In this document: in pieces, positions 34,309-64,000 of the stretch | Numbering within the stretch: position 1 is the first letter of the stretch | Layout: every line of letters starts with the position of its first letter | Source of the DNA: Thunnus maccoyii | Taxonomy: Eukaryota; Chordata; Actinopteri; Scombriformes; Scombridae | Length of the DNA: 64,000 bases | Assembly (NCBI RefSeq): GCF_910596095.1 | Contig: NC_056550.1 | Span: 18,198,501 to 18,262,500, forward strand | Direction of reading: 5' to 3' | The notes under the pieces: generated by a model | The model's database searches: none | What the model was told of the DNA's origin: nothing | The model's input: only the letters and a program-made list of their open reading frames with translations | Made by a program: the position numbers and the translations under genes

Positions 34309-34351
34309 TATATGTATATATATATATACACACACACATACATACACACAC
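34309..34351. repeat. TA/CA compound microsatellite
   Basis: An alternating TATATG/TATATA run followed by ACACACAC and ATACATAC units. Confidence 0.8.
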
Positions 34352-36830: not shown

Positions 36831-37050
36831 TCCTACCCATGAACAAACACGTTACAGCGTCCCAACAAAAGTTGTTCCCAACAGTATCAGTGGCCACTCT
36901 TTTTAGACCCCTTTGCCCCAAAAAGGTGAAAGATAACACACGTGACTGACTCAAGAGTGGCAATAATTTACCCAAACACGCTGTGGCTTTATTGCAGACT
37001 TATCTCTTTCTAATGAGATTAGATACAATCGTAGTTCCTAAGAGTTAAAG

Positions 37051-37085
<35 letters not shown>
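37051..37085. repeat. Poly-C homopolymer, 35 nt
   Basis: An uninterrupted run of 35 C between TTAAAG and TCCACTC. Its length is prone to assembly or sequencing error. Confidence 0.95.
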
Positions 37086-37088
<3 letters not shown>

Positions 37089-37700
37089 ACTCAAAAATGT
37101 GTTTTTCTTCTTGTTTCTACAGTTGAATGTTTGAGCTTCACTGTACAGGATGATGTACAGTATGCGCAGAGTTTGACACTAGAAGGCTGTTTTCACATTC
37201 ATCTGCTGAAAGTGGAAAGTTTCTCTGTGCTCACTGAAAATCTGATTTTAAGGGGTGGGGCCTACAAGCGTGATTTATGACATCACAACTAGTTTGGAGC
37301 CAATTCTTGTCCAATATTCAATTTAACACAAGTATGATGTGGAAACTTGAAGCCTCCAGTACACAAACACTGAGAATAAACTTTACAGTGAAGTAGGAGA
37401 CATCTTGTGTCCAGCAGGAAAACCTTTGAGGTGAAATATATTTGTGTATTTTGAGATTAAAGATTTTTTAATGAGGGAGAAGGAGATGTAATATTAAGGA
37501 TTTTAACAACATTTTATATACATCTTAAAACATGTCTGGGGGAAGAAGGGGTGGGGGGGGTCTCTAACGAAAATACAGAAGAAAATGGGTTTGGTAAAAC
37601 CATTTAATATATCAGCACCACAAAGACATAATTTAATTTTTTTTCCCTAAGAGATACCATTCTCTGGACTGGCATTATTCTGGGGTTGTTGATGTTGTAT
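37086..37700. repeat. Probable interspersed repeat upstream of pet100
   Basis: It contains TTGAATGTTTGAGCTTCACT, GTGCTCACTGAAAATCTGAT and GGGGCCTACAAGCGTGATTT blocks that I associate with a common fish interspersed element. There is no coding capacity and the ends are not defined. Confidence 0.35.
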
Positions 37701-38015
37701 TACGTAAGAGATTAGTAGAACGGGATCAGCAAAAAATTCAATGCAGGTAGATTATTGCAAGTATTCCCCAACTACCCACCGGAGAAAATTACAGCTGGAA
37801 AAATTCAATGGTTTGCAGCGCCACTCAGTGGACAACCACTGTCCAAGATATCTTTATTACACTAACGTCGGCTGCGATGCAAAAGTACGATTTAGATGTC
37901 GAGATACCCACATTTAATTTAACAAGATGTATTTTTTTTATTTGAACGAAATACCATGTGTCAGTCAAATTTAAATTGTGTTAAAATTATTTTTTTTTTT
38001 TTACACATAAACCCG

Positions 38016-38116
38016 GCGCATGCGTTGTGGCTTTCACGTGATTGGACCTTCGAGAAACCCGGAACTAGTGTGAAGGTCTTCGGTTGTGTGGCTGGAGTTT
38101 AGATAACATATTCCGG
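38016..38116 (+). promoter_or_regulatory. pet100: pet100 proximal promoter with NRF1, E-box, CCAAT and ETS motifs
   Basis: Within about 130 bp of the pet100 ATG lie GCGCATGCGT (38016-38025, NRF1-like), CACGTG (38035-38040, E-box), ATTGG (38041-38045, inverted CCAAT), CCGGAA (38059-38064) and TTCCGG (38111-38116, ETS/GABP cores on opposite strands). NRF1 and GABP drive many nuclear genes for respiratory-chain assembly, which suits PET100. There is no TATA box. Motif matching was by eye. Confidence 0.55.
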
Positions 38117-38141
38117 TTGTGGGTCTAAAGTCGATGTGAAA

Positions 38142-39295
38142 ATGGGTGTTAAAATAGAGGTGTTTAGAGTAAGTAGCAGCAACTTGAAATCACTAGTCGT
38201 GGACGTTTGTTATGTATTTGTCTTATGGTTTAAATCCGCACAAGTCGGCCTAGGTTTCATGGTTTGATCCAGCTATCAATAAGCTAACAGTGGTCATGAT
38301 GTAACTCACTAGCTGGTGTATTTGTTGTTGTTTTGGGCAGATGATGCTGTATTTGTCCTTTCCTGTGGCCATGTTCTGGGTCTCAAATCAAGCAGAGTAC
38401 TTTGAAGAATACATAGTAAAGAGAAAGGTCAGTAATATGTAGTAATGCTGTTTTTTAAAAAATTTGAATATCACTTCACCTAGTGAAGTTTAGTTCTTCT
38501 TGTAATAACAAATGTCTGTTTCTCTGTACTACGCTGGCATCTTTTCTGATCCCCAGAGAGAGATCTTCCCCCCTGATGAGGGACTTCATGTAAGTATAAT
38601 CCACATAGCTCATCTGTGTTTATGAAAGCCATAATTTCAATAAAAAAATAATCCACAAATGTTTGTGATAGTGACGCTACACTTGACACTCACTACCACA
38701 AACACTGGTGGTTTATTTTTTCAGACTCCACAATCATCTTGCTATTACCAGCACCTCATACTCTGCACCACAACTTACTTGTGTGTGAAAAGCTTTTCTT
38801 TTTGTTTTGTATTTTTCTCCATACAGTCTTTTATTGTTTCCTCAATTTATCACTCAGAAGTAAAGAGATAAATGGTGCAATCAAACCACACAGAAGCCAT
38901 CAGAGCTCCACATTGTGATGCTGCTTTTTAATTTAATTTTAAGAAAGTCCAATCATGCTGATAGACCGTACTGTTTTCAATTAGAGTGTTTTTTAAATGG
39001 ATTTATTGGGCTGATAATTAAGTATTTTTCCCCCACACTTTCTTCTCACGATTCTCCCCTGAAACCACAAATCAGTGTTGAGTAATTTCCCTGTGTCTTC
39101 ATGCATCTTAGCTGATTTCCTTTTATGTCTTTTACTTAGTATAAAGATCTGAGGATGTAAACTGACTCAATGATCTGCTGATAATTGTGTTATGTTTATT
39201 TACAGAGGAAAGAGCTGGAGGACTTCAAAGAGCGAATGCGTGTTCGGAAGGAACAGCGGATATTAAAAGACATGTCTGTGCAGTCTGACAACTGA
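38142..39295 (+). CDS. pet100: PET100 homolog, cytochrome c oxidase assembly factor
   Basis: A small mitochondrial inner-membrane chaperone needed for assembly of complex IV. Exons: 38142-38168, 38341-38427, 38557-38589, 39206-39295. All introns are GT-AG and in phase 0, giving 78 aa. It starts MGVKIEVFR and continues MMLYLSFPVAMFWVSNQAEY, which matches the human PET100 N-terminus closely; this hydrophobic stretch (about residues 10-25) is the single membrane segment. A charged helix follows (KELEDFKERMRVRKEQR), ending ...VQSDN. Human PET100 is 73 aa, so the length fits. It is the immediate neighbour of stxbp2, as on human 19p13.2. A possible ATTAAA signal lies at 39553-39558. Confidence 0.93.
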
Positions 39296-39552
39296 GGATT
39301 ATGTGTTGACGTATAACTGTATAAATTCCCAGCACAACCCATGGAGAAGTATCCGGCAATGTTTTTTGGGCAAAAGAAAACTGGTTGGACTGGAGGAAGA
39401 GCACGACACACTGGAAATCTCTGCGAGTTTAACACATCCCAAGGGTTTACTGGGTGTTTTCCAGAGATTAATTATGCCAGTTGAATTTTCATGTGAGACT
39501 TTTTAAATGTCAGAATTTGCCTGATCATTTGAGTTGCTGTGATGTCAAAGTC

Positions 39553-39558
39553 ATTAAA
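39553..39558 (+). terminator. pet100: Possible pet100 polyadenylation signal ATTAAA
   Basis: The hexamer lies 258 bp after the stop codon, in T-rich DNA. No better AATAAA occurs nearer the stop. Confidence 0.4.
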
Positions 39559-39614
39559 TATTTTTTGAGTTAAATATCCAGTTGGATGTAATATAAGTAT
39601 CATCTTAATTTTGT

Positions 39615-39870
39615 CGTGTACAGTGCCTATATACCCTTGGATTTGTTCATGTTTAGTCTCTTCATGGTATTATTATTGCATCACAGTGGAATGAAATTAG
39701 GCTTTTTTGACACTGATCAACAGAAAAAAAGAGCTTACTATCAAAGCCAGACTCAGCAAATCTTCATAAACTGATTTAAATTGAGTACAAATCTAAAACA
39801 TAAACAAACTGCCTAACTTTAGAACAGGCACCTGTGACAGCAATTACTGCCTTGAGCCAACAGTATATAA
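39615..39870. mobile_element. Tc1-like element remnant
   Basis: The order CAGTGCCTATATACCC, GTGGAATGAAATTAGGCTTT, TTTTGACACTGATCAACAGA is that of the terminal region of a common fish Tc1-type element. It is decayed, and no transposase frame remains. Boundaries are approximate. Confidence 0.4.
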
Positions 39871-40639
39871 CAAGACCTCGGTAGCTTTTGCTTTATGTTC
39901 TAGTTTGTTGTCTCATTGGAGTGAAATGTTCCCTCAAATCGCAATTCACTTACTGCATCAGGTTGATCTATCTGTATTTAGCTGAATTCATTTTAACCGC
40001 TACCTTCACATGCCTTCCTGGTCCTGCTATAAATAGACATCCCTACAGCTTGACGCAACCACCACCGTCACCAGAAAAGCACTCTGCCCATGATAGCGCT
40101 TCTCTGGTGATGTCAGCGTTTGTTGCACATGAACCATAGCCTTAGTATGATGACTAAAGAGCTCATCTTTGTTGTCATTGGATCATAGCGACGTCTTCCA
40201 TTTTGTCTCAGACACTTCCTCATGCCTTCTTGCGAACATTAGATCAGATACTGGGAATATTTGTTGACGCACTGCCTGTTCCTTTATGTTCATGAATTTT
40301 TGCACCTTGCAGATACCTATTTTTTACAAGCTAAAATCACTCGTCACACCTAGATTACACATAATAGATCAACTTGTGACATCCAAATACAATTGGCTGC
40401 ACTAATTATGATTTAGCTGTGTTGGTTGTGTGACGCTTTGACATGAAATAATATTTCGTGTCAAAGCCCAATTACATCCATTTTGCTTTGTAATACTAAA
40501 GTAACTAGTTAAATGTATTCTTGTAGACTTGTCAGTTTAATGCTTTCTTTCACAAAGGCATTTGTTGGTTTTGTTTCACTTACTGTGATTTATTTATTCA
40601 CTCATTGGATGTGGTTGTATCTGTATATGACGTTGTATC

Positions 40640-40860
40640 TTATGTTGTACACATTATGTGGCCACATCTGTAACCTCAGGTTACCAGAGGGTAGCTGGTT
40701 TGATCCTCTGGACTAATATTTTTGACAAGCCTTTAGCAAGGCATATCAGCCCCTACTGAACCTGTTTCTGATTGGCTGGTTGTTGTCAGACTGGGCAGCT
40801 CCACATTGTGTCAATGTGAGCATTTGTTCTCAGTAAACCTCCGCTGGGTTAATAAAGACA
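40640..40860 (+). mobile_element. tRNA-derived SINE-like sequence
   Basis: A Pol III B-box-like motif GGTTTGATCC at 40697-40706 lies in GAGGGTAGCTGGTTTGATCC, a tRNA-like TpsiC arm typical of fish SINEs. A body with TTTCTGATTGGCTGG follows, and then a run to AATAAAGACAAAA. It is not an intact tRNA; the cloverleaf stems do not pair. Confidence 0.45.
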
Positions 40861-40869
40861 AAAACATAA

Positions 40870-42283
40870 GTTCTTGTTTAGAAAGTGCCACTTGTACCTG
40901 AGTCTTTTCCCTGACCCCATATATTCCTTAATGCTAAATCACATAAGAGGCTGCTTTTCACATAATTATATTACCAAATATGTAATTCATTATTACTGAT
41001 TTTGCAACAACTTGAGCAATGGCATTGACTATCCATATTAAGTGTGACCCAAATGTACATCCTGGAACAAAGGCAACATAAAATACTGAAATATGTACCT
41101 CAGTAACTTCAAAATGTTTCAACTGAAATAAAACAATATATTTATCAGGCTTTTACCAATAATTCATGTGTAAGCTGGTGCCATCAGTTTAAAAAAGGAA
41201 TTCCCAGCATCTATCTTGTATGCTGAATGTGCATGAGGATATGCATGTTACGGCTAGTATGACACCACAGCGCTGTCGATCATCCAGCTCCAATTATCTC
41301 TGAATTTGACCCTGAATGTTATTAGGATGTTGTGCTGGTTGCAGTTCAAACACAACAGTTTCAAATTAATGCCCTTTTTAAGCGGTAATACTTGTTCTCA
41401 CATGCTTAAGGGTTCATAACAGTTCACAAATCATTTTGAATATGACATGGACAAAATTACACCGTGACCTTCTTCAGACCAGCACAGCTATCTATGATCT
41501 CCGAAATATGAGTATATGTGACAGGGATTAGCTTGTCCAGACACTCTTAAGTCTCAGATGTGTCCAACATCAACCGAACTAATGAACTGCTGAAGTTCTC
41601 ATCCATCATGATGAAACGATGACATGTTTTTTCCCCAAGGTCCATCAAATGATACCCTTGAAATATATTTGGCAATGAACGGTGGCCAGCTAGATGTCTC
41701 ACAGTCTCTCTCCAGAGGCACTGGAGACAGAGAGAGTGTGTGTATTTTCCTTCTTGCAGCTGTTTCTTTTTAATAGCTGCCATTCATTTTGAAACGCATT
41801 AAAAATATAGTATTATGTGATACACATATAGGCAAGATAAAGGTAGATAAATAATTTTCCTCCTGTGATGAGCTATGGAAGTGTACTGATGGTATAAACC
41901 TTGCTTCAGTGATCACATTGTCCTCATCATATTATTATCTTGAGGCTTTAATTATCACAATTCTTGGTGATGACCAGAAACACTGTACGACACAACAGTG
42001 CTCACATTTAATTGTTGTATTTACTATTTTACTATAGTTATTGGTTACACTGAATTTGTAGATAAGCTCAGGAATTGCCAGGCTTTATTTAAGGCCAAAA
42101 TGAATTGGAATTAATAGTTTCACAGATATCTCCTGGATTCTTGCTATTCTTGCTATGACGTGTTCTTGCGAGATAAACATCAGACAGTAGGGGGCAGTAT
42201 TTCTCTGTGAATAGCTGAGTGCTTGGACCATACAGGCTTTAACAACAAGGAAGTGACCGCCTAACCAGCAGACTGCTGTCAAG
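40870..42283. other. Intergenic pet100-stxbp2, nothing recognised
   Basis: AT-rich intergenic DNA leading to the stxbp2 start. I see no exon or RNA gene and no well-bounded repeat. The stxbp2 promoter should lie in the last few hundred bases, but no TATA or strong core motif is evident. Confidence 0.5.
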
Positions 42284-45200
42284 ATGGCACCGAGTGGGCT
42301 GAAAGCGGTAGTAGGAGAAAGTAAGTGACATATTTGTTGTAAAGTTGTATCCTTTCATGAAGTTTCTTCTAACCAGAAGACAAAGGTACTTTACCCGAAC
42401 TTATCTCGCATCAGCTTAATAAACTGACGCTAAACCTGACACTTAACACCGTTGAGGACGTCGGTCCTTTAGGTTTCTTCCTGCTCCAGTCTCAATCAAA
42501 ATGCTAACGTTACCGAAGGAGATAATGTCATTTAATTAACTAAGTTAGGGCTAAAAAGTAGTATTATTGTATTGCATGTGTTGGTAACAACAGTTATTGG
42601 GTGGAAATGGTGGTTTGTTGTTATGACATTTGACAGACGTACAAAGAGTAACTTAACGTTAAAAGTCTCAGTGACTGTCAGTCCAAGTTGTTGGCTAATG
42701 TAAGGCTAACGTTAGCTTACTAAGTTAACCCGAAAAGGAAGTTCATAACTTCGCTTGTTATCGATTAGTTAAATCAACAGGAGTATGTATAATTTAACAT
42801 TAATAAAATCACAAACCTTTGGTGCAATATGTTTTGTTGTATCTTATATTTCAGTATTAACACACTTGTCTCGTGTAATTTAACAAATAACTATCGAACC
42901 GGGTGTAAAAGTAGCTTATAGATCTGCTGATAATCAGGACATTTTATATTCACAAATCCATACAAAGTCAAATAATATTATGTAAGTCTAATGTTTATTT
43001 AATAAATCTAATGTTTACATGTTTACAGGTACACATGCACAATATAATGTCATCCAATACACTAGCTCAGGCATACATTTTGCTTTTATGTCGCTTATAA
43101 TATTCAGGTGTTGTTTTTTTACGCTGTCATAGAGTTGTTAATTCAATTATATGTTTAAGTATTGAGGTCATAGTTGGTGGTGGTGGTGTTGTACTGAGCT
43201 GCGTTATACTCAGAGGTGTTTGTAATATTCTGTATGTAAATCGGGAGGACCAAAACATTAGAAACACCTCTCAATATAATGTAGTTCAGTACAACACCAC
43301 CTTTAACTATGACCTCAGTAATAAACATACAATTCAATTTACACATTTCCGACTCTGTCAATTCAAACTGAACATTATAAACTTAATAAATTAGAATTTA
43401 TGACAGAGCCGTTGTATTGAATTGCATTAGATTATTCGGGTGTACCTAATAAAGTGGCCACTGAGTGTATGTTAATGTTACATAATATTTTAAGTGTTCA
43501 AATAAAGTGGTAATTATTCTAAACAACTTAAAACTCTAATTGGTAAAATGTTTTCAATACAGATACAACTCCTGTAAAATATGTAGTATTTTTGCAAGGG
43601 TTGTCTGTGACCGTATTTTGTTCTTTTACACATTAGGAGTGTGATGTGAACACACCCGTCGCTCAGAGTTGTTGAAATTTTTAGGTGTGTACTGCTAATA
43701 ATCCTGACCTTGCCCAGGATCAGGCCTACAGTGACTTGTTATTCGCTTGTACTAACCAATTACAATAGTAATAGTTAATTTCTATGAATTTTGGAATATG
43801 CGCTTGTTCTTGTGCTGCCATTCAATTCAATGCCATTATTATTATTTATGACAATAGGAATATAAAACACACATTTATGAAATCAACATAAACAGGCTGG
43901 AAATGTGGCCAGGTCTTGTGAGGTTGACCTGATGCTTGAAATATTGTTGTTTAGTTTAAGCACAGGAGTGTGCAGATCCTCTCCTTTGGCATTGTTAATA
44001 ATGGCAAATAAAATAAGTAATCTTTAGTATTAAACTCAGGCCAGTGACAGAATAAATTCAAATAAGGCTTCAAACAGCATTGTGTTATAGGCCAGACAGG
44101 TTTCCAGGGCAATTTTGCGTGCAGATATTTTTTGACATTTTGAAAATTACCAAATACATCAGCTAATCTTGTCAGGATTGCTTGGAATGGTCGTCTATTT
44201 TAATGCAAGTAACAAGTAGTCATCGTTTCCAGTTCCCAGTATGGAAATAGGTTTGGCATTACAAGACAAGACATTTGTCGGTGTGGAATTTTCCTCTTGG
44301 TTCAAAATCTCAAAAAAACAACAACAATGAGAACAATATTGAGTTTGTAATGTTTCTTATATTTACATTTACACAATTTGGTGTCAGTTAGTCTACAGTA
44401 ATTCTGTCAGTTTTATGTTGTTGAATGTACAGTATGTTGGTACAAAACTAGATCATAGTTCTGTTATTTTTCTTTATAGTTAACTGCTGGATTAATTTCC
44501 TGTAACCAGCCAATTATCATTTCAATTTGCAATAGACTTGATATGGTAATAATAGCACTCAAACAAATTCCTTTGTGAGTCACCACTGTGTTTCTAAATA
44601 TGTTCAACAAGGAAGTTGTGTAGCTCTTCATTCATCAGTACGTGTCTTCCCACAGTCTCCTTCCTTGAATGCTTCCTTCAAAGTACAATGTCAGTAAATG
44701 GGATTTAAGACATTTCAGATGATGGCCACATTAAATATAATGGCTTTTGCAACATGAAATGGCGTCTCTGCTCTTTTACCCTGTAGGTTAATGTGTAATT
44801 TCTAGGTATTTTGGGCATGTTGGCCCACTTCCACTGTAAAACACTGCAGGTAACCCTCAGTTTTGCAATTTGTTTCGGTAGTAGCACCACACCTCAGCTG
44901 TTGTGCCTATGAAGTCACTAGCACAAATATACTATTGTGGATCTTCACAGTCTGTGATCTCAACAGTATAATGCAAGACAGTTGCACCCAACTGGCTGAG
45001 TTGGTAAATACAAGTGCCAAATATGGGTTTATTTTAAGAAAGTTCCTGGTTCCTGATTTAAAGTTTTAGACATGTAATTGACCTCTAACCTTTTGCATTG
45101 TGTTTATACATGAAATTGGAAAACCTTTCAATTAAACCACATATGTAATCTTTTACTCTTTTAATCCACTGGTGCACAACAGATTAAATGCTGGATTTAG

Positions 45201-48200
45201 TTGTACTTTATAGAGATTAATTTAACTAAATAGGAATTGTATAAATTAAGATAGAATGCTGTTATTAAAAAATTGAATTTTTTGAATCATACATTTTCCT
45301 TATTAAAAAAATTACTATGGTGTTATGTTACTTCTGCTTTACAAACAGAATTGCTAAAGTATTGCAGCAGTGGCGTCATTATATATATTGTAGCACTTGT
45401 TACCCATTGTACCTATTTCCTGTGCTGAGATAGAAATGTTTTCTCAGAAGTTATTGATAGTTCTGTAATTACATTTGAATCTTTGTCTTGTCTTCTACAG
45501 AAATCCTCAATGGGGTCATCAAGAGTGTGAAGAAGGATGGAGAATGGAAGGTAAGGGAAGTTGACAAATAAGAATCAAGACATCCCCTGATTTTGTCACA
45601 CTGAATTATAACCCCTGTTTATTTCATGTGTTTCTTCAGGTTCTTATTGTGGACCACATGAGCATGCGAATTCTGTCCTCTTGCTGCAAGATGTCTGACA
45701 TATTGGCAGAGGGGGTGACCAGTAAGTATGCAGATAATTATTGAATTTGCGTCCTGTGCATCAGTTGTATACAGGTACAGATATCCATATACTTTCTTTT
45801 TTAAATTTAGCTCAACTTTACTCAATCTGGGGGATTTACACAATTTATACTCAGAGCTGTTGTGTTTTAGTATTTAAGTACACATTTCACCCCTTCCCTT
45901 ATAGCTGGATGACATTAATCTGTTCTAAGTTGTTTCCTGTCCCCAGAGTTCTGATTGATTGGAAATGAAAGAGATACAGTCCATACAAAGCCACCTCACT
46001 CACAAAAATCAAAGAAATTTTAGATTTGCACTTGTAAAAGTGTTTTTCACCCGCATTTATAACTCAACTAATATTCCCATGGAAGATGGAGGTTTTTTCC
46101 CTCTAGGAGTAATTAATGTCAGCACTTACTTAAGTTGTCCTGGCAGCTTGTATCAGTGCATTATGTTGCTGTATTTGACATTACATTGATGTTTTATTTG
46201 CATGTGATATCGTGTTAATTCATATGGTTCAGACTGAAGTAAAATTCCTCTCTTCTCTGCTTTTCAGTTGTGGAGGACATCAACAAACGCAGGGAGCCCA
46301 TCTCTAGTCTGGAGGCCATATATCTGATTTCACCAATAGAGAAGGTTAGTGGTCTTCTGTGTTCATTTTGATATTTCTCATATTTTGATATTTCCCATAT
46401 TCAGAATCTTTTAAACAACATTTTGTTTTTTTGAATTACAGTCAGTTCGTGCTCTCATTAATGACTTCAAAGACACTGCCTTTACTTACAAAGCAGCACA
46501 CATCTTCTTCACTGACAGTAAGTTTGTGTGTGTGTACAGTATACTCTGCTACAGCTACAGACACTTTATGAATAATGCTATTTTCAAATGTAGTTTTCAA
46601 AACATTTAAAGTTACAAAATATATAAAATAATCAGATCAACCTATTGCCATTCCTAATATTTGTTATTCTTTTACTTCTGTAGCTTGCCCAGATGGCCTC
46701 TTCACTGAGATTGGGAGATCCAGAGTTTCCAAAGTTGTCAAGACTTTAAAAGAGATCAATGTTGCTTTCCTGCCGTATGAGTCTCAGGTAGGGGATTGTC
46801 TCCACTTGTCTCCTAAACCAACATTATCAACATCAATTTATTTTTAAATTCATTCATCTAATCTAATTTTTGAGCTGTCCTTAAATCTCGTTTTAGCTCT
46901 GATTTGATTTCCGCTAGCTAAAGTCGCTAAATGCTCCACTATGTTCAACATAAATAAATAAATATATACATAATAGATAAAGTTATATTTTGTGTTCTGT
47001 GAAGTTTATAATTACAGTTTTCAGTTTTGCTGCTTAAAATGCAGTGTCTCACAATATTTGCTGTAGTGGCATTACTGTGCGCATGGAAGCATTTATATAT
47101 ACTGAACACAGCCTCTCACATTTCATTGTATCATCATTTACAGTAGTTGTTGCCTCACTATCATTACGCAAAGACAGGAGGAAAAATTAAAGATCAAGCT
47201 CTTGACGATCTTGGATTAGTCCCATATCTTCTTCTTCTAGAAACGCCTCTGGTCATCAATAAGATATATTCAAACTGAGGTCAATCTTAATCCCTGTCAC
47301 CCCTACAGGTATTCTCCCTGGATGACCCAAGCTCCTTGCACTCCTTCTATAGCTCAAAACCCACTGTAGAAAGAGACAAAATGATGGAGAATCTGGCCGA
47401 GCAAATTGCAACCCTGTGTGACACACTTAAGGAGTATCCTGCAATCCGATTCCGCAAGTATGGAAGTCTTGCATCAAAGTACAATGAAATTAGTTTGCCG
47501 CTGAGTTTTCTTGCTGATTGAAAGTTGCATGCCACCCTGTCTCACAGGGGACCAGAGGAGAATGCTAGACTGGCTGAAGAGGTCTACCAGCGCCTTAATG
47601 CTCACAAAGCTGACAACCCAAGCATGGGAGAGGTTAGGGACCACTAAGATACCACCCGCATCAATTCCTATGTGCTCTACTGTATTAATGCAATTCTTTG
47701 ACAAAAAAAAATCTAAAACTGGATTCTTACACTGCTTTTTTTCTGCTGAACCAGCTTTTTCATACAAGAAAATAAACTTCCATTGGGATTCTGCAGCTCT
47801 TCACCTTTACTGGTTGTGGACGTTTCTGTGGTTTCAGGGTTTTATTTCCTGTTTATTTCCTAATTTTTCTCATGCTTTGCTGGACCTTTCTCTTTTTCCC
47901 TTCTTCTTTTCTGTCTCTCTTAGCTGACATTTCCTTGCTCCTGAGATGGGTCTTAACAGGCATGTATTACTGTTCTCTTTTTCCCCCCATTCATCTGAAT
48001 TGCATTAACTGTGCTGTATGAGCATTCTCTGTATTTCCTTTTACTATACATGACATGGCAAGTTTGCTGAAGTGCTGCCTCATGCTGCATCAGTCATGCT
48101 GCAATCAGACAGTGATTGTTGCAATTTGTGATTTTTTTTTTTTGTTTAGATAAAAACTGATAACACTTTCACTGCATGACTCACAAAAACATAACAGAGG

Positions 48201-51200
48201 ACTTTATGTTTCATGCGTACTGTAGACTAGGTCCTAGTTTATTATGCATCTGTGGAGTAATAAATATCTTTCATTTTTATTGATTCATATGCCTAATCTG
48301 TCTTGTTTTTCAGGGTGCTGATAAGGCGCGATCCCAGCTACTGATTATTGATCGTGGGTTCGATCCCATCTCACCTATTCTACACGAGTTGACCTTCCAG
48401 GCAATGGCTTACGATTTGCTTGATATCACGCAGGATATCTATAAGTGAGTAAACATCTGATTTTACTGGAGCTGCTGTTCATTGACTTTGCGAAGTCAGT
48501 GTGCTATATTTGGCGTCCCATTTTTCCATACAAATTTTTGTTGTACCTATGTACTTTTTTTTTTTTTAAGGTATCAGACAACCGGCATTGGAAATGCAAA
48601 AGACAGAGAAGTGTTATTGGACGAAGATGATGAGCTCTGGGTTCAACTCAGACATATGCACATCGCAGATGTCACTAAGTAAGTCCACATGAGTGCCTCT
48701 CATGGTCATCCTTCCCAACAAGTGCTGGTCATTGCTTTCACCTGGCTGTATATTATACCTTCAAAACACACACCTCACTATGTGTGCCCTCTCAAAGTTA
48801 GAAATTGTTACTTTGATATTACATTGTAATATTATATTTAATGGAGGGAAATGAAAATAATGAATTCATCTGTTTTTTAAAAAATATTTTAATGGAATGG
48901 AGGGGTCAAGTAAAGCAGTTTAGATTGCAATAAGAAAGTTGCCCAAAAGATGGTGTAAAAGGCATTGTGTTTGTGTGTGTGTGTGCGTGCGTGCATGTAT
49001 AACAGTTGGGTAAAGTTTTGATCCTGTATAATGTGAGGTACCTAGATTACAATTTGATTGCTCATTAACAATCATTTCCCAAATTAATTATTGCAGGAAA
49101 GTGACAGATCTTCTTCGCACCTTTTGTGAGAGCAAGAGAATGTGCACTGACAATGTGAGTGTTTATGTGCAATAATCATTTTTGTTATTATTACAAATGT
49201 CTGTGATTTAACATGAAGACTGTTTTTATTATTGTGATGCAATTTGATTACAAATGTGTTTTCCATTTCAGGCCAACATCAAAGATCTCTCTCAGATGTT
49301 AAAGAAGATGCCACAGTATCAGAAGGAGCTGAGCAATGTGAGTGGGATGAGGAAAAGCCAGCTGTTCACCTTTTTAGTATATTAATGTTGCGATATTGTA
49401 CATGTAATGCTTATTTTTTATTTCATTCACAGTACTCTACTCACTTGCACCTAGCTGAAGCTTGTATGAAGAAGTTCAAGACCTCTCTTGATAAGCTTTG
49501 TGAAGTGGAACAGGTCAGTACTCTTGTGGAGTGTACATTTGAAATTGATCTCATGTTGTGACGGGATCATCCAAAATTTTGACTTAGAAAATTGGTCATT
49601 CGGACACAAACAGCATTTTCATTGTAGTAAACATCTTTATAGTCTTTTTAAATCCATGGAGGTCTAGTTTATTACATCTATAGTTGTCTGGCAATGTAAC
49701 AAGTGAAGCTTTAGTGTTCCTGTACATCTATAGTTGGAGGTATAAATAGAAACACGATAATGGACTCTTGATCCCTCAAGAGAAAGGCTACCATAGATTA
49801 CAACTGAGCCATTGAACTTCTTGGAATTTGTCTGCTCTTGTGTTGTTGTCAAAACCTGTCAGTCTTTAGTTTTTATCACACAGGATCAACAAGAATGTCC
49901 CACTGTATTAGCCGCCGACAGTAAGTATCTTAGAGAGAATGTTTGACATGGAATTACTAGTGTGCCACTCACTCAGCACTCTTAAGTGACCTCGACTTTA
50001 TAGTGTCTTTATTTATAGCTCCTCTGGGGTGTGTTCAAATGCCACTGGCACGGTCTTGTGATGTTTAATGGAGAATCATAATCGTAATATTGCATAAGAA
50101 GCTTGTGACCGGACATCAGCATCCGTATATCTACAGAAATGCAGAAGAGGCTATTATGCCATGTAAAGGCATTTAATAACATGCATATCTACTACTTGGT
50201 AATGTAGAAATCCTTCCAGGTTCCTGCATGAGCCAGGCTTTATAAAGAGTGGGATAAAGCCAAGGCCCAGACCAGTGCCAGACCCCAGTGTGTTGTTTGG
50301 ATGTGCCAGACATGCTTTGTCTCCCTGAGGGCCTGTATTCTGCCACATTTAGCCTTGTATCAAATGAGTCTCAACCACACAGGAAATGATAAGCCATGCA
50401 TGGTTGTGGCATTATGAGATGCAAGTGTTAATGGGGCCTTTTTGTATGACTGAACAACTCGACTGCATTAATGGATTGCCAGCATGTCTGAAAGCTGCCT
50501 CTTTAATCCAATGGGCATGTTTTGGCTCTGTGATGGACAGTGTGATCCAAACAGCAATAGCTCTCTTTCAGCTGTCATTTGTGTAAGTGTTTTATATTGT
50601 TTGGACAAGCAATTACAGATGTATGTGTATAACACGTGCTCTTCTCGCCATTTTCTAATTTTAGTTGCTTGCAAAAAGTTTTGTTGTTGATTGGCCCTAA
50701 CAAGGCTTAGTCCAAATTCATCATAAAGCTTAGCAAAGAGTTTTTCGGGAGATTGCACAGTGCCCAGGATATCATTAAAGGGAAATCCCCTAGCTAGACG
50801 TAAGTATAAAAGCCCAAGTTAAGTAGCCAATATTTGTCATTATTTTTGACATAGTTGATGGATTAAATATGCAATATGCGTTCAGTGTTTTGTAACACCA
50901 GCATTAACTTAAAATAGTTTAATGGTTAGAGCAATAGTGCCAATGCAGTCTTCCTAAATTATTGCGTGGTCATGAGCGAGAGAATTGAATTGAGAAGACA
51001 TAGAACAAGGTTGAGAAGCAGTACACACACGCACACACACACAGTATATATACAGTATGGCAGAATTTTCACTTCAGAATACTGCTCTGTTAAGAGTATC
51101 AGCTGCCTGGCTGTCAGCTGACTTAAGGTGTGATTGGTAATTCAGATTCCAGTAGCAGTTAATAGTTAACCACGGGTGTCTTCCACAGGACCTTGCAATA

Positions 51201-53150
51201 GGTGCAAATGCGGAGGGGGAACCTCTAAAAGATGCCATGAAGAGCATTGTTCCTGTGCTCCTCAACAATGAAATTAAGGCCTATGACAAAATCCGCATCA
51301 TACTGCTCTACATATTCCACAAGAAAAAAGGTGGGCCCTTGACACAACTGTGTCTGTTTACAGTAATACCTATGTGACATTTTAAAACCAATATTTTTTT
51401 GTGCAAAAAAACATCAAGTTTTAAATAAAAGAGTTTTGTTTTCCATGTAGGCATCGGGGAGGAGAATCTCGCCAAGCTCATTCAGCATGCAAACATACAG
51501 GCAGACAGCAACATCATCACCAACCTGCAGAACCTGGGCTGTAACATTATAGCTGAGGTAAATTTCTTGATTTCCGTTTGACTATGGTCTTAATGTTTGT
51601 ATGTGAGTATTTCTTACATGTGTTATGTTGTTTTTTTTAGGGCCGCAACGCTGGTAAAATGCTGCCAGAGCCGAAGGTGCGCACAGAGAGCACATACGAT
51701 CTCTCTCGATGGACTCCCATCATCAAAGACGTCATGGAGGTATTAAAGCCGAAGTGAGGTTTCAGATGTTGCTGGCACACCTGCTCAGTTTTGCTTTCAG
51801 CTTTTTACACCATCTGTGTTTCTGTTTCCCAGGATGCCATTGAGGATAAACTGGACAGAAAGCAGTGGCCATTCATATCTGATCCTGCTCCCATCAATAC
51901 AACCCAGGCAGCAGTCAGGTGGGAACTAGAAAAAAGATCACTTTCATTTTATCAGAGTTTGCAATGTATATAAAGAAATTATTAAATGAAAGCATTCCAA
52001 GGAAATATTAGTTTGTAAAACAATTGTTGTTGTTTGTTTTTGAAGCAAGACAACTGTTAAATTGGGTAACAGGCAGATTATTTTTGTAAAATGAAAGCTT
52101 TTATCCCTGTAACTGAGATCGAGACAAGCTTTTGACAAAGTAAGTTGGAGATGAAAGGGTGAAATTAAGCCAGTTTTGCTTTGAATACTGAATATAATCC
52201 TACAGGGAATTCCCATCATGATGATGGTGCTTATACAAACCACTCTGATGGACCTGGGTGCACTCATAATCTGTATAATGCACAATGCCTGTCATCCTTT
52301 CCTTTTAGCAAAGTGCAGAATTAAAGCTGAGTAGTCATTAATATTAACACTAGAATACAGGCTGACTATACAGGGATGGTTGTGTAAAACCAGACATGGA
52401 AGTTGAACTTTTGTAACATTATAAAACTGATTAGCGGAAGTAGTAAGCAGAGAATTACAATAAAATATAAATACAATATCAGCTTGAACTTAAGTTAAGA
52501 CCGGAAAAAAGTCATTTCTCTGCTTGTTTCGGATTTCTGCTTCTTCTCAGGCGGCTTTATTTTCTTCCCCACGTGACATGCTTTATTTTTTAGGATTTTC
52601 ACATTCACATTAAATCATCAGGGTCAATTTCTTCTTAATACTGTATTAAAAGGAAATATTCCATGATATTTTGAGTGGTTGCTGTTTAATTGAAATTGAA
52701 ATGATTAGTGAAGGATCATGTATCTGTAATAAAACTGGCGGCTCACAAACAAACTTTCATTTAGTTACTTGTTGCTAAATTATTGTTTTTATTCTTTTAC
52801 AGCAGTGCACGTTTTGGACACTGGCACAAAAATAAATCTCCAACAGAGTATCGTTCTGGCCCGCGGCTTATCATTTTTGTGATTGGTGGCGTGTCACAGT
52901 CAGAGATGCGCTCTGCCTACGAAGTCACTCGAGCCACTGACGGGAAATGGGAAGTGCTGATTGGTAAGCAATTGCTGTTGTGAAGCAACATGATTTTTCT
53001 GCTTCCTCCTAAGAATATAGCATTCAAGAGGTTTTGCCTTTATTCAATATATAATTTTTCTCCTTGACAGGCTCAACTCACATCCTGACTCCAACCAGCT
53101 TCCTTAATGACCTGAAGAGTCTGGACCAAGTTCCTAATCCTGATTGTTAG
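42284..53150 (+). CDS. stxbp2: Syntaxin-binding protein 2 (Munc18-2)
   Basis: A Sec1/Munc18 protein that clasps syntaxin and drives SNARE-mediated exocytosis, notably granule release in blood and epithelial cells. Exons: 42284-42320, 45501-45550, 45640-45721, 46268-46344, 46442-46517, 46684-46787, 47309-47457, 47548-47632, 48314-48444, 48571-48678, 49097-49154, 49272-49337, 49433-49513, 51189-51330, 51451-51557, 51641-51739, 51833-51918, 52803-52963, 53071-53150. Every junction is GT-AG and phase-consistent, giving 592 aa (human 593). It starts [31 protein letters not shown] and [15 protein letters not shown] favour STXBP2 over STXBP1. Family landmarks include [49 protein letters not shown] and [14 protein letters not shown]. 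The first intron (3.2 kb) holds a fold-back repeat, and intron 13 (1.7 kb) holds a possible cryptic exon. Confidence 0.95.
43139..43341. repeat. Long fold-back (inverted repeat) element in stxbp2 intron 1
   Basis: The arm at about 43139-43221 (with TGAGGTCATAGTTGG) is repeated inverted at about 43262-43341 (with AACTATGACCTCA). The best-matching core is about 57 bp per arm (43163-43221 against 43262-43317), with a loop of about 40 bp. The tail at about 43425-43470 carries GGTGTACCTAATAAAGTGGC, a sequence common to fish repeats. Probably a MITE. Confidence 0.65.
49884..49920 (+). other. stxbp2: Possible cryptic or poison exon in stxbp2 intron 13
   Basis: A 37-nt segment lies between a good acceptor (TTTTATCACACAG) and a consensus donor (GTAAGT). 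Its length is not a multiple of 3, so inclusion would shift the frame and meet a stop in the next exon. It is not part of the standard protein. Confidence 0.2.
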
Positions 53151-53784
53151 ACCCTGAACAGGGAAGAGCGCATTTGAATAAGGGTTTAGTCTTTCTTCTG
53201 AGATGATTGGTTGCCGATCTTGTCACAGCATCTCTGACATCAGAAGTGAAACATGAGGAGAAATTTTAGATGTAGATGGAAGGAAATGTTTGTGATGCTT
53301 TATTTTATTTTAGAAGGTTCTTCTTATTGTTTGTTGTGAAATTGGTTCTGTATACTTCTGTGATTGAAATTATGTTGAAAATATTTAATTTGAATGTAGG
53401 TGTTATTAATATTTTGATTATTGTACTATTCTCATTCAAATTCTTATTTTTGTTACTATATATTTGATTTCCTTAGTTTTGTACTGAAAGGATTGTATCA
53501 TTCCCACAAAGCTGATCATCTCACACCAAAAATTTCATTCAAGTCTAATCTAGATGTATATAAGTCAATAAGTGTATGTACCTTATATCCAGGGACATTA
53601 AGTGTGTGATATCTGTCTTCTCTAGGTACCCTTTTTTTCCTCATCTGGGAAATTTCATCTCAGACAAAATGTCTCACCTGCTGTCTCGTGAAATCTTGCA
53701 CATTTACCTTTCAATTTAATATATTGCTGGGAGCAAATGTGGTGGTTGTGTGTTTCTTGGTTGTTAAAAGTAATATAAGTAAGT

Positions 53785-53790
53785 AATAAA
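53785..53790 (+). terminator. stxbp2: stxbp2 polyadenylation signal AATAAA
   Basis: A canonical hexamer 635 bp after the stxbp2 stop codon and about 700 bp before the next gene starts. It is the first AATAAA in the 3' flank. Confidence 0.6.
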
Positions 53791-53799
53791 GAAACATTA

Positions 53800-54488
53800 T
53801 ATGCACTCTAAATTGTGATTTAAAAGTTGTTTTAAATGTGTGACAAAACAATCTCAAATCAAGGTCCACTCACTAGCTTTTCTGAGCTTCTATGAATGTA
53901 TCAGACAGCTCAATTTGCTGTGAGTTTGAATATTTACAACCCTTTACAACCAGAACCAAATATTTGAGGTCTTATTAAAATGTGTGTATTATACTGATAA
54001 GTGTATCACAGCAGGGGCAGATTTGTTCATCTCAATACCGCGTGACCCAGGCATATGCCTTCTTGCTCCATATAATGACAATGTGGAAGCTTCAAAATGC
54101 AAACATGAACTTTAAGTATAGTGTTAGGTCAAAGGGCAGTCATGTACACCTACCAGTGAAAAAGATCATCCCTTTCCATGTTGAGGATTATGTTTTCATC
54201 TGGGATTACAGATGGTAATATTAAGAACGGGGCACTGGCTGGGGTCTTAATGGCAGTGGGTTAATACTCCGGACTTAACTCTGTTTAAAAGCCTTCCACC
54301 AAGCCATATCCAGTACACATTTGGAGAAACATCGAACAGGACCATATATTCCATTGCACATACAATAGATCCATTCAAGAAGTGTTGAATGGGATCTCGA
54401 TCAATAGTACATCTGTGCAACTTTCTTGACGTTTCGCATTTTACCTAGTTTTCAGTCAGGGACCTTTTCCCTTTTTGTATTATTTTTC
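53800..54488. other. stxbp2-pcp2 intergenic spacer
   Basis: A short spacer containing the presumed promoter and 5' UTR of the GoLoco gene. No clear TATA box, CpG island or repeat was seen. Confidence 0.4.
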
Positions 54489-57400
54489 ATGATGGCAGCT
54501 GCTGGAGTGGATTCAAAATCAGAAGCTACAGACACTGTGCAGGTAAGACCTTTGTACTGTAATAGCAGTTCTCAATTCTTGAAAGTTTGTACATTTTGAA
54601 GTATTTTGTTTTGATGGTTTACATTTTTGACTAATAATTTTATTCTTATTAGTGTTCAATGTGTATTTTTCAGATGTTTTTACAGATTTATATTATTCCT
54701 CAAAAGTTACCAAAAGAAGTAAATATTTTAAGTTATTACATTTATGCTTTGTCATAAGTATTTTATCACAATTTGTTGAAAGTGTAATATACTGTAATTT
54801 GTTACCTTTTAATATGATGCATTGATGTTTTAAATTGATCCCCAACATGAGTTCCAAGACTTTTATTGTGATATGGAGACAACTATACAGGACAACAGAT
54901 TTGGTGCCAAGGAGAAAAACATGAAGTAGTAGTTCATACTATTTGCCCATTCTTTTGGCTTATGTTCAATAGGAAACCCCTGAACAGGAGCATATCTTCA
55001 ACATGATGAGTTACTCACAGCGTGGACGAATGGACGATCAGTGTTGTGCCTTGAATCCTTCTAAAACCTCACAAACCAAAACCTCACCTACAGGTTGGGA
55101 CAGTAGACACAAAGATACCCTCTCCATTGTATGTTTCCTTTTGTAGATTTTTTCTTGATTGTTTCACCCCTGCTCCTCACAGGTTCAGACAATAAGAACT
55201 TCCTCAGTACCTCGGACAACATGCAGGGACGCTTTAATGACCAGGTACGCAAGTAAGGTTGTAAAGGGCTGACTGGATGTATCTGCACAGGTTGTGTGAT
55301 GAAGTAATGTCTGACCTCTGCTCCAAAATGTGACTTTTTCTCAGGAACCAGGGAGTAATAACCATCATGGCTCTGCACCTCAGATCTCCGTGACAGAGAG
55401 TACTCCAGATATGAACAGGAAGCTCCTGTCAGTGCCAGACAACCAATTACAGGTTCCCCCTCAGCGTGACCGCTCCAATTCCATAAAGGTCTGTTCTCTC
55501 CCACTGTGTCATTGTGGTTGCTTTAGCTATTACAGATTCTTTCTACTGACCTGTTTGATCATGTGTTATTAAATGTTGATCATCCTCATTTTGATCAGAT
55601 CATTATTGCACTGTTTTTGTCCAATAGGAAGAGACACCTGATGAGCAACAAAAGTTCATGAATATGATCAGCCACGGCCAACGTGGGCGCATGGATGACC
55701 AGCGCTGCTCCTTGAATGTTTGCAGGAGTGCTCCCTGCACACCCAAACACACAGACAGAAAGCCTGCTGCAAGTACAATAAACACAGGTGAATGATAAAT
55801 ATAACTGGCTGTATTACAAATATTTTTGTAAACATTTACAGAATTGTGTTGCAATTCTTGCAGTTGTCTTTTGCTTACCACCTCTTTATGACAGATCCCG
55901 TTTCAGACAAGTTGCATTGCCTATATAGTTACTTAACTATTACACATGTTTTCACATTTCATCTTCCCAGCCTCAGATTCTGATATGTTCTTCAGCCTCT
56001 TGGCCAACACTCAGAGCAGACGGCTCGATGACCAGCGAGTATCTCTTGCATCATTACCAGGATTACAGAAAGAAAATCCTAAATCCATGACAGAAGAAGA
56101 TTCAAACGACTTGAGTGACATCGTCTCTAAAATTCAGGTTAGTCCTTCCAACTTTTCTTTTAAACACCTAATATTTTTGACATCAATGCATGAAAGTATC
56201 AAATCCAAAATAGTGACCTTTTGTCTTCCTTTAAATGTTGCACAAATATGAAACTAGAATGTTAACAAAATATGCAAATGAAATTTAATTTGTTGGATGG
56301 CACAAAAGGCCAAACAGCCATGAATTTACAGCAAACAGTTTCACTCTTCCCCATGTTTGGGATGTATAGTGCTTCAAAGTCTGTTTAGAAGAAAATGTCA
56401 TGTTAAAGCATGCCATGAACTAACAGCTTGTAGCTTTAAGAATGGTTGACATGGGACGATTTTTACAGGTGCTGAAAGCTGTGATATATCATTTGCATTC
56501 AAAATAGTTGACATTCATTATCTTCTGCTCGTTGTGATGTGGAACTGTATGCCTTAAAGGAGTCTGCAACTAAATAAAAAATGGTGGGAAATGGTCCAAT
56601 TAATTTTCAGGGTTCCAGAATGGACGACCAAAGGTGCTCCCTACCCAAGATCCTGACCCCCGAGGCCCAGTCTTCAAAGGATAAGATTGGTTCAGGTCCT
56701 CCACGTTCATCCTCCTTCAGCCCTGGCTCAGACATAGAACGTGCAAAGAGCAAAGATAAAGCATCTTCAAAACAGGTATATGCACAAGTCACTTTAATTT
56801 TTCACCTCGGGAGGTAAAGCCAGTTACATTTAGAACAATGATGTTTTAAATCTGCAATCTTAATGCCTTTTTCACCATCTAGGTTTTGACTCCAACTGAA
56901 CAGGATGATTTTTTTAGCTTCATGAGTCATGCCCAGCGTGGGCGAATGGACGAACAGCGATGTGTCTTAAACCCGAGTCCCAAGTCCACACCTAAACACA
57001 AGCCCACTGAGAGTACAGCGCCCAAAGGTTAGAGGTTTGCTTTCCACTCTTCTTCTACTCTTCCACTGTTCTTATTTAATAACTCCACATTACACATTTG
57101 ATCATTCAGCTAATATGTCTCTTTTGTACTCCCCCAGGTCCAGATTCTGAAAAGTTCTTCAGCCTGTTGGCCAACTCTCAGGGCCGACGGCTTGATGACC
57201 AGCGAGTATCTCTTCCTTCATTGCCAGGAATACGGAATGGAGGCACAACATCAGCTGCTGCAGAGATGGATGCAAGCCACTTGTGTTACATGGTCTCCAA
57301 AGTCCAGGTTAGCCCCATAATTAGCTTGGTGTAAAGACCATTGTGACAAGTTGTTGACTGTCATTTTGTCCTTCACACATTTAATTACAAATATAGGAAA

Positions 57401-59740
57401 TATTTAATAATACACCCAACTCTTTTGATACAATATGACTGCAGTTAATCCTATTTTCCTCCCACAGGGCTCAAGGATGGATGAACAGAGATGTTCTGCT
57501 CCCCAAATCTTACAGACTATAGGTACCCCATCTACTCAACGCAGGGACCATCCTACTTCAGACACATCTGATAAATCTCCCAGAAGGACTGGCCAACAGA
57601 AAGTGAGACTTCATGCTGCACAATGCACAGCTTAGAGTTTTGCCTGTACTTTTACTGTCCTGTAATCTCGTGTTCTTTTAAGTAAAGACGTTAAAATAAC
57701 ATCAGTGTTGGTGGACAGGGAGCCTCTGTTGTCTGTGTAATTTCTGAGTTGTCCCACTTCTCATTGCTTTCCTCTCTTTAAATCTTTTTTTAGGAGGCAT
57801 CTCCAGCTGAGCAGGACCAGTTCTTTAATATGATAAGTCATGCACAAGGTGGACGTATGGATGAGCAACGCTGCTCTTTACAACCGAGCAGAAGCACTCC
57901 TGCTACACCCACACACAATGGAAGTTCTTTAAATAATGTAACCACAGGTCAGAAAAACACACAGGGCACTTAGGGTCAAGTATGTGTTTTCTGTCTCTGA
58001 GATGCCATAAAAATAACACTTGACTCTCCGTAACAGGTGCAGAAGCTGACGCATTCTTTAAAATCATTGCCTCCAGTCAGGGTAGACGGCTAGACGATCA
58101 GCGTGTTGCACTTCCAACCCTGCCGGGGATTCGTGGGAATTCTGAAGGAAAACAAACTGGTCATACAAAAGTAGGTTGTAGGTTACACCCTATTTAAATA
58201 ATTAGTGGTGTGAACAAAAAGAACATTGCCAACTTAAATTCATTTCCTTGTTATTTTTGTGATTTCCAAACCCCAATGTGAATGGTATGCAGGCCTTGTG
58301 ACTACAGTACTGTAACTTGAGATCTATTCATGGGGGAAATGTCATACTTGAACCCAAGGTTCACCCTATAGAATAGTTGAGCAGAATAGATTTTTTTGCA
58401 CCTTAATGACTCCTCAGTCCTAGATATGGTGCATATTTGTACCATCTAATCACTGGTGTTATGAAGGAATACTTGACAGCTTGTCTGCCTTTTTTCTCAT
58501 TTTTCTTCTGCAAGGCTTCTGCCCCACACATTACTGTGGCTGAAAGTACACCAACAACACCAAGGAAGGACCGCTCCAGACCCTCCTCTCAACCCCAAAT
58601 TGCAGAATCTGGCTCCCCCAGAGCCATACCCAAGTCTGCCTCATTTAGTCCCGGGTCAGAATATCAGAAGCAAAATTCCCCAGGACAGGTAAAAAGTTGC
58701 CCTCAAATGCAAAACTATTTTCCTCAAGTGTGATTACTGGAAAACTGAATATGCAGAGGTCATATAAAAGGGTGTCAGTGCAATTTACACTTTACTGATC
58801 TGGTTGATCTTTAGTGCCTTGCACAAGTACATCAAATCGATGAGATGATGAGATGAAAAGATCTTACTTGCATGAGTCCAGTCTTTAGTGATGCACTGTT
58901 TAGCAGACAGTTTGTTCACTCTGACATGAATCATTACTACATGTGGGCAAATTGACCATACCCTATCAGAGATAGTGGTTTCAGTTAGGGGGAAAGAATA
59001 CTCCTCTCTCGGAGCTTCAAGTGTGAGTTTTGCTGAGGTGGGTCTCTTGCCCTTGTTGTGATTTTAAAGTTTTATCTTAATGCAAGACTAAAGAGTCACT
59101 GAAACACTTATATCACATAGAACAATGACATGATGTTTCTTTACAGCTTACAGTGAAGGTGTCTATGAGCTTCACACCACAACAGGTAAGCTGTGCCAAA
59201 GCTTGTATTGATAGTGAGCTATTTGCCCAAGGATGTGATCTTGATAATATATGTGTGCTTTCATCGATCCTTTTTTGACTCTTTTATCTGTCAAAGGGAC
59301 ATAAGAATATGGACCAGCCATGTACATTCCCAGAAGTCTTCCTCACTCTAGGAGCCCCAGGGGATAATCTTGTGATCCCTCTGAGTCCAGCACCTGGCAG
59401 ACCCCTTTCCTTCAACTTAAACCTTGTCCCAAAAGAAGGTGTTACATCCAGGCACTGCTCTCCAAGCCGTGCCAGTCCCAGGAAGGGCCGCTCAAGGCCA
59501 TCATCTCCCAACCAAGGAGCAACCAATGAACAGGGGAATGTCTTGACCAGGTCTATCAGCCCAGATGACGACTGCTTCTCTCTGATTGAGAAGGTTCATA
59601 CAGCCCAGCTGCAGAAGGGGATGGCTCAAGGAGAACAAAAATGGAAAGGGGATCCTGGAAAGGGGAGGGAAAAGGCAGAGCACGGAAAAGGAAAGGGGGG
59701 TGGAAAGAAAGATAAGAAGGATGGTGGAAACAAACAATAG
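54489..59740 (+). CDS. pcp2: Multi-GoLoco protein, expanded PCP2 (L7) orthologue
   Basis: GoLoco motifs bind GDP-bound G-alpha-i/o and block nucleotide exchange. Exons: 54489-54542, 54973-55093, 55183-55244, 55345-55488, 55628-55787, 55971-56137, 56611-56775, 56883-57027, 57138-57307, 57468-57602, 57794-57947, 58037-58170, 58515-58688, 59147-59185, 59297-59740. All junctions are GT-AG and in phase, giving 755 aa; mammalian PCP2 is about 100-136 aa with two motifs. Eight motifs keep the D-Q-R triad: exon 5 ([10 protein letters not shown]), 6 ([10 protein letters not shown]), 6/7 ([10 protein letters not shown]), 8 ([10 protein letters not shown]), 9 ([10 protein letters not shown]), 9/10 ([10 protein letters not shown]), 11 ([10 protein letters not shown]), 12 ([10 protein letters not shown]). 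Motifs in exons 2 (DDQCCAL) and 3 (NDQ then E) are degenerate, and exon 15 has a remnant ([13 protein letters not shown]). The B-type tail SLPGL/I matches human PCP2 (SSLPG). The C-terminus is a Lys/Gly-rich tail. The gene symbol rests on motifs plus synteny. Confidence 0.85.
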
Positions 59741-60146: not shown

Positions 60147-60152
60147 AATAAA
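60147..60152 (+). terminator. pcp2: pcp2 polyadenylation signal AATAAA
   Basis: A canonical hexamer about 410 bp after the pcp2 stop codon and before the convergent myosin gene's own signal. Confidence 0.55.
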
Positions 60153-60484
60153 CAGAAATGACAAAATTAAATGTGATCACCAATTCATATTTGCTCTTGA
60201 TTAGTTGAACCACATGAATAATAAATGAGCCTATATTGTAAGATCCTATTTCATTCATTGGTGCATCTCAGCTCGAGCACATGATGAAAAACAGGTTGTA
60301 AAGTTTGATCTTAACTGACATTGCAGCAAAGATTTCTGCAATATTTTGCCAGTTTGGTCTTCTTATTTACACACTGTTATAATATGGTTTCATGTAACTG
60401 TTATCCAAGCTAGATTGGGTATCTAAGGTTGAATATGACAAACAAGAAGTAAAAACAAAACAGAACACTTAAGATTTTTCAACA

Positions 60485-60568: not shown

Positions 60569-63826
<3,258 letters not shown>

Positions 63827-64000
63827 CTATAAATTCATAATAAGAAGCATGAAAGTCTTAATTTACATAATGTAGCACATACACAAACACAGAATGTCTT
63901 TACATTAACAACCTACCCAATTTCCTCATGGGGATTATTAAAGAGTAACTTCATTTTGTCATCTTAACTAAGAAACAGACAGACAAATTAAATCTTTCAT
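63827..64000. other. Myosin heavy chain intron, cut by the window edge
   Basis: AT-rich intronic sequence upstream of the first visible rod exon. No exon is recognisable before the window ends. Confidence 0.6.

Follow-up and report, generated by a model that had tools for sequence, protein, structure and literature searches.

A probable PCP2-type gene of Thunnus maccoyii with a four-fold repeated GoLoco exon block

A 64,000-nucleotide stretch of the genome of the tuna Thunnus maccoyii (assembly GCF_910596095.1, contig NC_056550.1, forward-strand positions 18,198,501 to 18,262,500; the window, in whose numbering all coordinates are given) contains at 54489-59740, on the + strand, a gene whose predicted product carries an array of GoLoco motifs. 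PCP2 has been read so far as a small modulator with two such motifs. We propose that the tuna gene is probably of the PCP2 type, that a block of GL1-, GL2- and GL3-type motifs was duplicated within it, and that its product would be a multivalent binder of Galpha-i/o-GDP. The array consists of four copies of a three-exon block that encodes the three motif types in this order; blocks 1 and 4 have lost GL3. The motif itself is an ordinary one, present in extraordinary number. An earlier reading of the letters of this DNA (the original prediction) had described a PCP2 orthologue with up to eleven GoLoco modules; it had missed the four-fold GL1-GL2-GL3 repeat, and the block architecture is thus an addition to it.

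The gene model has 15 exons that join into 2268 nt of coding sequence, stop codon included, for a product of 755 residues (about 82 kDa, mostly a linker-like string), in a locus of 5.25 kb. All 14 introns have GT..AG borders, the exon borders having been hand-picked among the splice sites catalogued near each exon end so as to preserve the frame; three of the donors (gttggg, gtctgt and gtcaga) are weak. Exon number, end points and length are those of the single continuous frame described in the original prediction, which had named stop codons in the joined frame as evidence that would speak against it; only the terminal stop is present. The gene model is real and that description of it is correct. 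Its least certain parts are exon 1 and exon 14, neither of which shows homology: in exon 1 (54489-54542) the start was predicted from the sequence, and a second ATG (54492) stands in the better start context and would give 754 residues; exon 14 (59147-59185), the least certain exon, measures 39 nt and is drawn from its splice sites and frame. Candidate poly-A signals follow the stop codon at 60147-60225 (AATAAA at 60147, ATTAAA at 60166 and AATAAA at 60220). A series of separate tandem genes was considered and set aside, as the frame is kept across the block-joining introns, and these, at only 139, 107 and 191 nt, leave little room for separate genes. Short introns and the genes present would fit a ray-finned fish. 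The 755-residue protein found no match in NCBIfam, a prokaryote-built collection, and a search of viral contigs for relatives of its first 595 residues returned two pattern matches, neither encoding a relative; this is what one would expect of a gene from a vertebrate.

The whole protein matches Pfam GoLoco (PF02188) with 205.6 bits (E=4e-62) over 9 stretches, and when the motif peptides are scanned singly against the gathering score of 25.1 bits, all eight intact ones (A2, B2, C2, A3, B3, C3, A4 and B4, named by exon type and block) lie above it, at 25.7-46.7 bits. The A1 motif, in which DDQC replaces the usual end of the core and the arginine finger is thereby absent, scores 17.8 bits, below the cut-off, and the B1 peptide, scanned in frame, has no Pfam GoLoco match. 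The Asp/Glu-Gln-Arg triad is present in eight of the ten recognisable motifs; its arginine codon is TGT (Cys) in A1 and CGN or AGR in the eight others. Across all six frames, the window holds 8 instances of the pattern R[ML][DE][DE]QR and none turns up in any of 30 mononucleotide shuffles, and a looser core pattern finds nine motifs (the eight intact ones and A1), all on the + strand and all inside this gene. The earlier count of eight intact and two degenerate motifs therefore agrees with the Pfam result, in which all eight pass, A1 falls below the cut-off and B1 is unmatched. Of the "up to eleven modules" proposed at the same time, eight are likely to be active, judging by their sequence; one lacks the arginine finger, one is decayed, and any others are at most traces.

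The four-fold repeat can be read from the exon lengths, which modulo 3 run 0, (1, 2, 0), (1, 2, 0), (1, 2, 0), (1, 2, 0), 0, 0. Every block opens with exon A (phase 0 to 1), which encodes the GL1-type motif, followed by exon B (1 to 0) with the GL2-type motif and exon C (0 to 0) with a linker; in blocks 2 and 3, exon B additionally carries the first half, and exon C the second half, of a third motif. Block 1 comprises A1 (54973-55093), with the GL1-type motif whose arginine finger has become Cys, B1 (55183-55244), a decayed GL2 relic of 62 nt on which the frame nevertheless depends, and C1 (55345-55488), a linker exon, recognised by linker alignments, that has lost its half of GL3. Block 2 is made up of A2 (55628-55787; intact GL1-type, 39.8 bits), B2 (55971-56137; intact GL2-type, 38.7 bits, and the N half of GL3) and C2 (56611-56775; C half of an intact GL3-type motif and linker, 32.4 bits for the spliced peptide). 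Block 3 repeats this plan with A3 (56883-57027; intact GL1-type, 26.3 bits, or 25.7 with longer flanks), B3 (57138-57307; intact GL2-type, 44.0 bits, and the N half of GL3) and C3 (57468-57602; C half of an intact GL3-type motif and linker, 33.8 bits for the spliced peptide). Block 4 consists of A4 (57794-57947; intact GL1-type, 46.7 bits), B4 (58037-58170; intact GL2-type, 30.7 bits) and C4 (58515-58688), again a linker exon known by its linker alignments, from which GL3 is lost.

The motif classes are equally distinct in the protein: same-class pairs score at least 80 and cross-class pairs at most 66, leaving out B1, which scores at most 30 with every motif except itself. C1 and C4 can be recognised as C exons because their linkers align, the motif half being gone in both: among 1000 shuffles, the score of the C1-C4 alignment was reached by 0, that of C2-C4 by 2, of C1-C3 by 3 and of C3-C4 by 10; that of C1-C2 was reached by 651. 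Judged against mouse PCP2 and the C-terminus of GPSM2 as references, the ancestral unit looks like GL1-GL2-GL3, present four times. A GoLoco motif of a given number is described as resembling the same-numbered one in other organisms more than its own neighbours (PMC6706577). Two phrases recur in the linkers and may contain kinase sites: the basic, serine-rich PRK[DG]RSRPSS in exons 13 (58515-58688) and 15 (59297-59740), and an S[AS]SFSPGS-like one in exons 7 (56611-56775) and 13.

Exon 15 (59297-59740) encodes C-type linker traces, a possible GL4 relic and a Lys/Gly-rich tail before the stop. Neither the tail peptide nor the exon matches Pfam GoLoco, and on this ground the idea of a genuine eleventh motif at the C-terminal end was set aside. 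The vestige that the original prediction had placed there finds weak support in PDDDCFSLI, which aligns with PDEDFFSLI of GPSM2 GL4 at a score reached by 1 of 2000 shuffles, the strongest result among 12 comparisons; of the other 11, C2 was reached by 5, C3 by 17, GL3 by 81 and the remaining eight by at least 241. The exon aligns at its start with C3 (7 of 1000 shuffles) and in its linker part with C4 (0 of 1000); it does not align with C1 or C2 (841 and 346 of 1000). These values hint, and do no more than hint, at a GL4 relic and at a fifth, decayed C exon.

The duplications look old, as the two families of direct repeats of at least 30 nt are exonic (one starts 5 nt ahead of its exon), their members sharing 60-86% identity with the reference copy. 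Between introns no repeat of at least 30 nt was detected, within the limits of the tool for gapped or very diverged copies. Tandem repeats are generally known as a source of error in assembly, and a single block copy might have been placed several times; this lack of repeats between introns, taken with the divergence of the exonic ones, makes such an artefact scarcely credible. Substitutions in the motifs point to constraint: in all ten motif pairs compared, nonsynonymous differences per site (pN) are fewer than synonymous ones (pS), at pN 0.16-0.28 against pS 0.63-1.04 in nine pairs and 0.11 against 0.21 in B2-B3, values that are individually rough, being drawn from short stretches of 26-32 codons. 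Silent sites are saturated in six of the ten pairs, for which the synonymous divergence (dS) is not computable, and three have a dS of 1.4-2.0. One could alternatively see in the locus the non-working relic of a longer array, given that A1 has lost its arginine (the TGT codon), B1 is truncated, and C1 and C4 are without GL3. Such decay is very improbable for a gene that retains an open frame of 2268 nt with its splice sites and without frame-breaking damage, along with eight intact motifs and the pN below pS in each compared pair.

The B2-B3 pair stands apart in a further respect. Exons 6 and 9 are identical at 85 of their first 100 positions, which hold the GL2 motif (55971-56070 and 57138-57237), and in the ungapped flanks the identity drops to a chance-like 2-9 per window of 20, where the windows downstream are partly out of register, exon 9 being longer by 3 nt. 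As this identity has chance-like flanks and the other repeats have diverged at silent sites, it looks like the product of a short, recent gene conversion.

We place the gene with PCP2 because stxbp2 adjoins it, no TPR was found nearby and a BRD4-like gene is linked to it; the orthology accordingly rests on position more than on motif sequence. The gene for STXBP2 (Munc18-2) lies at about 45479-53150 on the same (+) strand and ends about 1.3 kb upstream, its first exon not having been located; the best PDB match of its joined exons is STXBP2 (908 bits), ahead of STXBP1 (798) and STXBP3 (531). The legend of a figure on the Retn neighbourhood names Pcp2 and Stxbp2, along with Pet100, Wiz and Rasal3 (PMC4467842). 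A Pfam scan of three + frames of 44801-54600 (families at E <= 0.1) recovered no TPR, only Sec1, with a sensitivity lowered by small split exons and a coverage that, beyond stxbp2, does not extend to every frame. The linked gene, at about 2857-14774 on the - strand, encodes a bromodomain and a BET domain in two open reading frames (ORFs) and is probably brd4: the best 60 of the 110 PDB matches of one of its ORFs are all BRD4, a name over-represented in PDB, and that ORF is itself without a Pfam match. In humans PCP2 and STXBP2 are adjacent on 19p13, where BRD4 also lies. GPSM1, GPSM2, GPSM3 and PCP2 each have a NOTCH gene and a member of the BRD family in their vicinity, the pattern to be expected if the four arose in the genome doublings of early vertebrates.

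The main alternative with regard to descent is a gene of the GPSM1/2 family in which the TPR domain disappeared and the GoLoco region grew. In this direction point the B motifs, three of four of which are nearer GPSM2 GL2 than PCP2 GL2 (97, 95 and 91 against 90, 86 and 75), the decayed B1 being the opposite (22 against 30), and also C2 and C3, for which GPSM2 GL3 is the best match (78 for C2 and, by a narrow margin over the 58 of PCP2 GL1, 60 for C3). All four PDB matches at E <= 10 are likewise GPSM2, in a contest that is not a fair one as PDB gave no PCP2 chain. On the other side, three of the four A motifs are nearer PCP2 GL1 than GPSM2 GL1 (the exception being A1, at 52 against 55). In place of the single GL1-GL4 series of GPSM1 and GPSM2 there are four GL1-GL2-GL3 blocks, with GL4 at most a trace. 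Moreover, the neighbour is STXBP2, which stands beside PCP2 in mammals; only some 1.3 kb separates the two tuna genes, and no TPR came up in the three + frames scanned. We regard a GPSM origin as unlikely.

Several points nevertheless weigh against a PCP2 assignment. Motif similarity alone does not clearly separate PCP2 from GPSM2, and the GL3-type motifs have no counterpart in mouse PCP2. The human PCP2 and STXBP2 genes are arranged head to head, as opposed to the two + strand genes seen here, so that the gene order is not identical. The Retn neighbourhood is described as not conserved in fish, with zebrafish Stxbp2 placed on chromosome 3 (PMC4467842). The PCP2 gene is further said to vary little in size among vertebrates, at 2.1-2.8 kb in human, mouse and anole (PMC6792250), as opposed to the 5.25 kb of the tuna locus. 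The PCP2 orthologue of the original prediction draws its support mainly from the adjacent stxbp2 and from the lack of a TPR in the frames scanned nearby; the motif sequences leave the choice between PCP2 and GPSM2 undecided.

Elsewhere in the window, the exons of a myosin heavy chain tail (about 60570-63830, - strand) are convergent with the PCP2-type gene; of three myosin ORFs scanned against Pfam, one lay above the cut-off, one below it and one was unmatched. A very long polyglutamine run is present in the BET gene near 5.9-6.2 kb. From the BET gene to stxbp2, a span of roughly 30 kb, there was no Pfam family in the one of six frames scanned at 14801-29799 and the three of six at 29801-44799.

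Set against known systems, the tuna protein resembles PCP2/L7 in its GL1-type then GL2-type order, its lack of a detected TPR and its STXBP2 neighbour (PMC4467842), as well as in the GL1-GL2 spacing, which is 40 in the mouse protein and 45-50 in the intact tuna pairs. It differs in having 755 residues, eight intact motifs and a GL3 type, as against 120 residues and two motifs in mouse PCP2; the same Pfam scan finds 2 stretches in that sequence and 4 in the GPSM2 C-terminus. With GPSM2/LGN it shares the GL1, GL2 and GL3 types in the same order and perhaps the GL4 trace of exon 15. Unlike it, and unlike GPSM1/AGS3, both of them proteins of four motifs that bear eight or seven TPRs (PMC4528294), the tuna gene shows no TPR in the region scanned and has a three-motif series four times over; the sequence comparison covered GPSM2 of these two. 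Evolutionary change in GoLoco number with a functional effect is on record for the echinoderm AGS (PMC6706577, PMC11666239), and the gain or loss of one motif can alter asymmetric division in sea urchin embryos (PMC6706577). That case differs in that one motif was gained, for a total of four, in a TPR protein with a role in cell division, with no block expansion. Among the literature matches listed, which do not extend to subscription papers or fish annotation databases, none was seen to mention a PCP2 exceeding two motifs or any GoLoco protein exceeding four; the same architecture may already be recorded in fish annotation databases.

As to function, GoLoco (GPR) motifs are described as binding Galpha-i/o-GDP, blocking its rejoining with Gbetagamma and being able to prolong Gbetagamma signalling (PMC4528294). 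The ancestor of the gene would have had a GL1-GL2-GL3 series such as GPSM2/LGN still shows, and its three-exon block would have been copied in tandem to four, the outer copies then shedding some of their motifs. Each intact motif would be expected to bind one Galpha-i/o-GDP, away from Gbetagamma, through its Asp/Glu-Gln-Arg triad, and eight such sites per chain would form a high-capacity, clustered sink for Galpha-GDP, which could set the speed of Gi/o switching and the duration of free Gbetagamma. Simultaneous occupancy is sterically plausible, as the eight intact triads lie 41-73 residues apart (41-50 inside blocks and 63-73 across them), no shorter than the 34 residues between GL3 and GL4 of GPSM2. 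A1, in contrast, should lack guanine nucleotide dissociation inhibitor (GDI) activity as far as the arginine finger model goes, Cys having replaced the triad arginine. Frame, motifs, repeated blocks and neighbours can be read in the DNA itself; transcription as a single mRNA, binding by each motif, its stoichiometry, the cell type and the physiological effect are what we infer.

Mouse Pcp2 interacts with Galpha-o and modulates the inhibition of Cav2.1 by Go (PMC6585000), and a retina-specific splice form of Pcp2 has been described as speeding up the light response of rod bipolar cells (PMC11269129). The scaffold or buffer of many Galpha-i/o-GDP in Purkinje or bipolar cells that the original prediction proposed would be a reasonable reading of the tuna protein. 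Counting against a sink of this kind, Pcp2 has been reported to stimulate the release of GDP from Galpha-o, and Pcp2-null mice are almost normal (PMC6585000); PCP2 may thus act either as a GDI or in the manner of a guanine nucleotide exchange factor.

The gene might, on the other hand, give rise to shorter isoforms rather than to one 755-residue protein, with A+B pairs or whole blocks skipped and most products holding two to five motifs. Exons A (1 mod 3) and B (2 mod 3) can be dropped together, and C (0 mod 3) alone, with the frame intact; three donors are weak, as noted above, and mouse Pcp2 is itself alternatively spliced (PMC5243870). Yet the sequence has the splice sites that the full product needs, and the frame symmetry is a consequence of how the blocks were duplicated and does not prove skipping, so that we consider predominantly short products possible but doubtful. 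As A or B dropped singly would break the frame, valency could be varied in A+B pairs or, for GL3, by skipping C exons. With similar reserve, one may picture the full-length protein docking up to eight Galpha-i/o-GDP subunits, their number being stepped by exon skipping, as an adjustable Gi/o buffer to which the duplication of exon blocks gave rise in the PCP2 lineage, mammalian PCP2 then being a reduced form of a longer GoLoco series.

If the eight-motif gene is indeed an orthologue of PCP2, it would tie PCP2 to the GPSM series. It would also offer a natural experiment on how GoLoco valency relates to Gi/o signalling in fast neurons, and its product would be a ready-made multivalent trap for Galpha-GDP.

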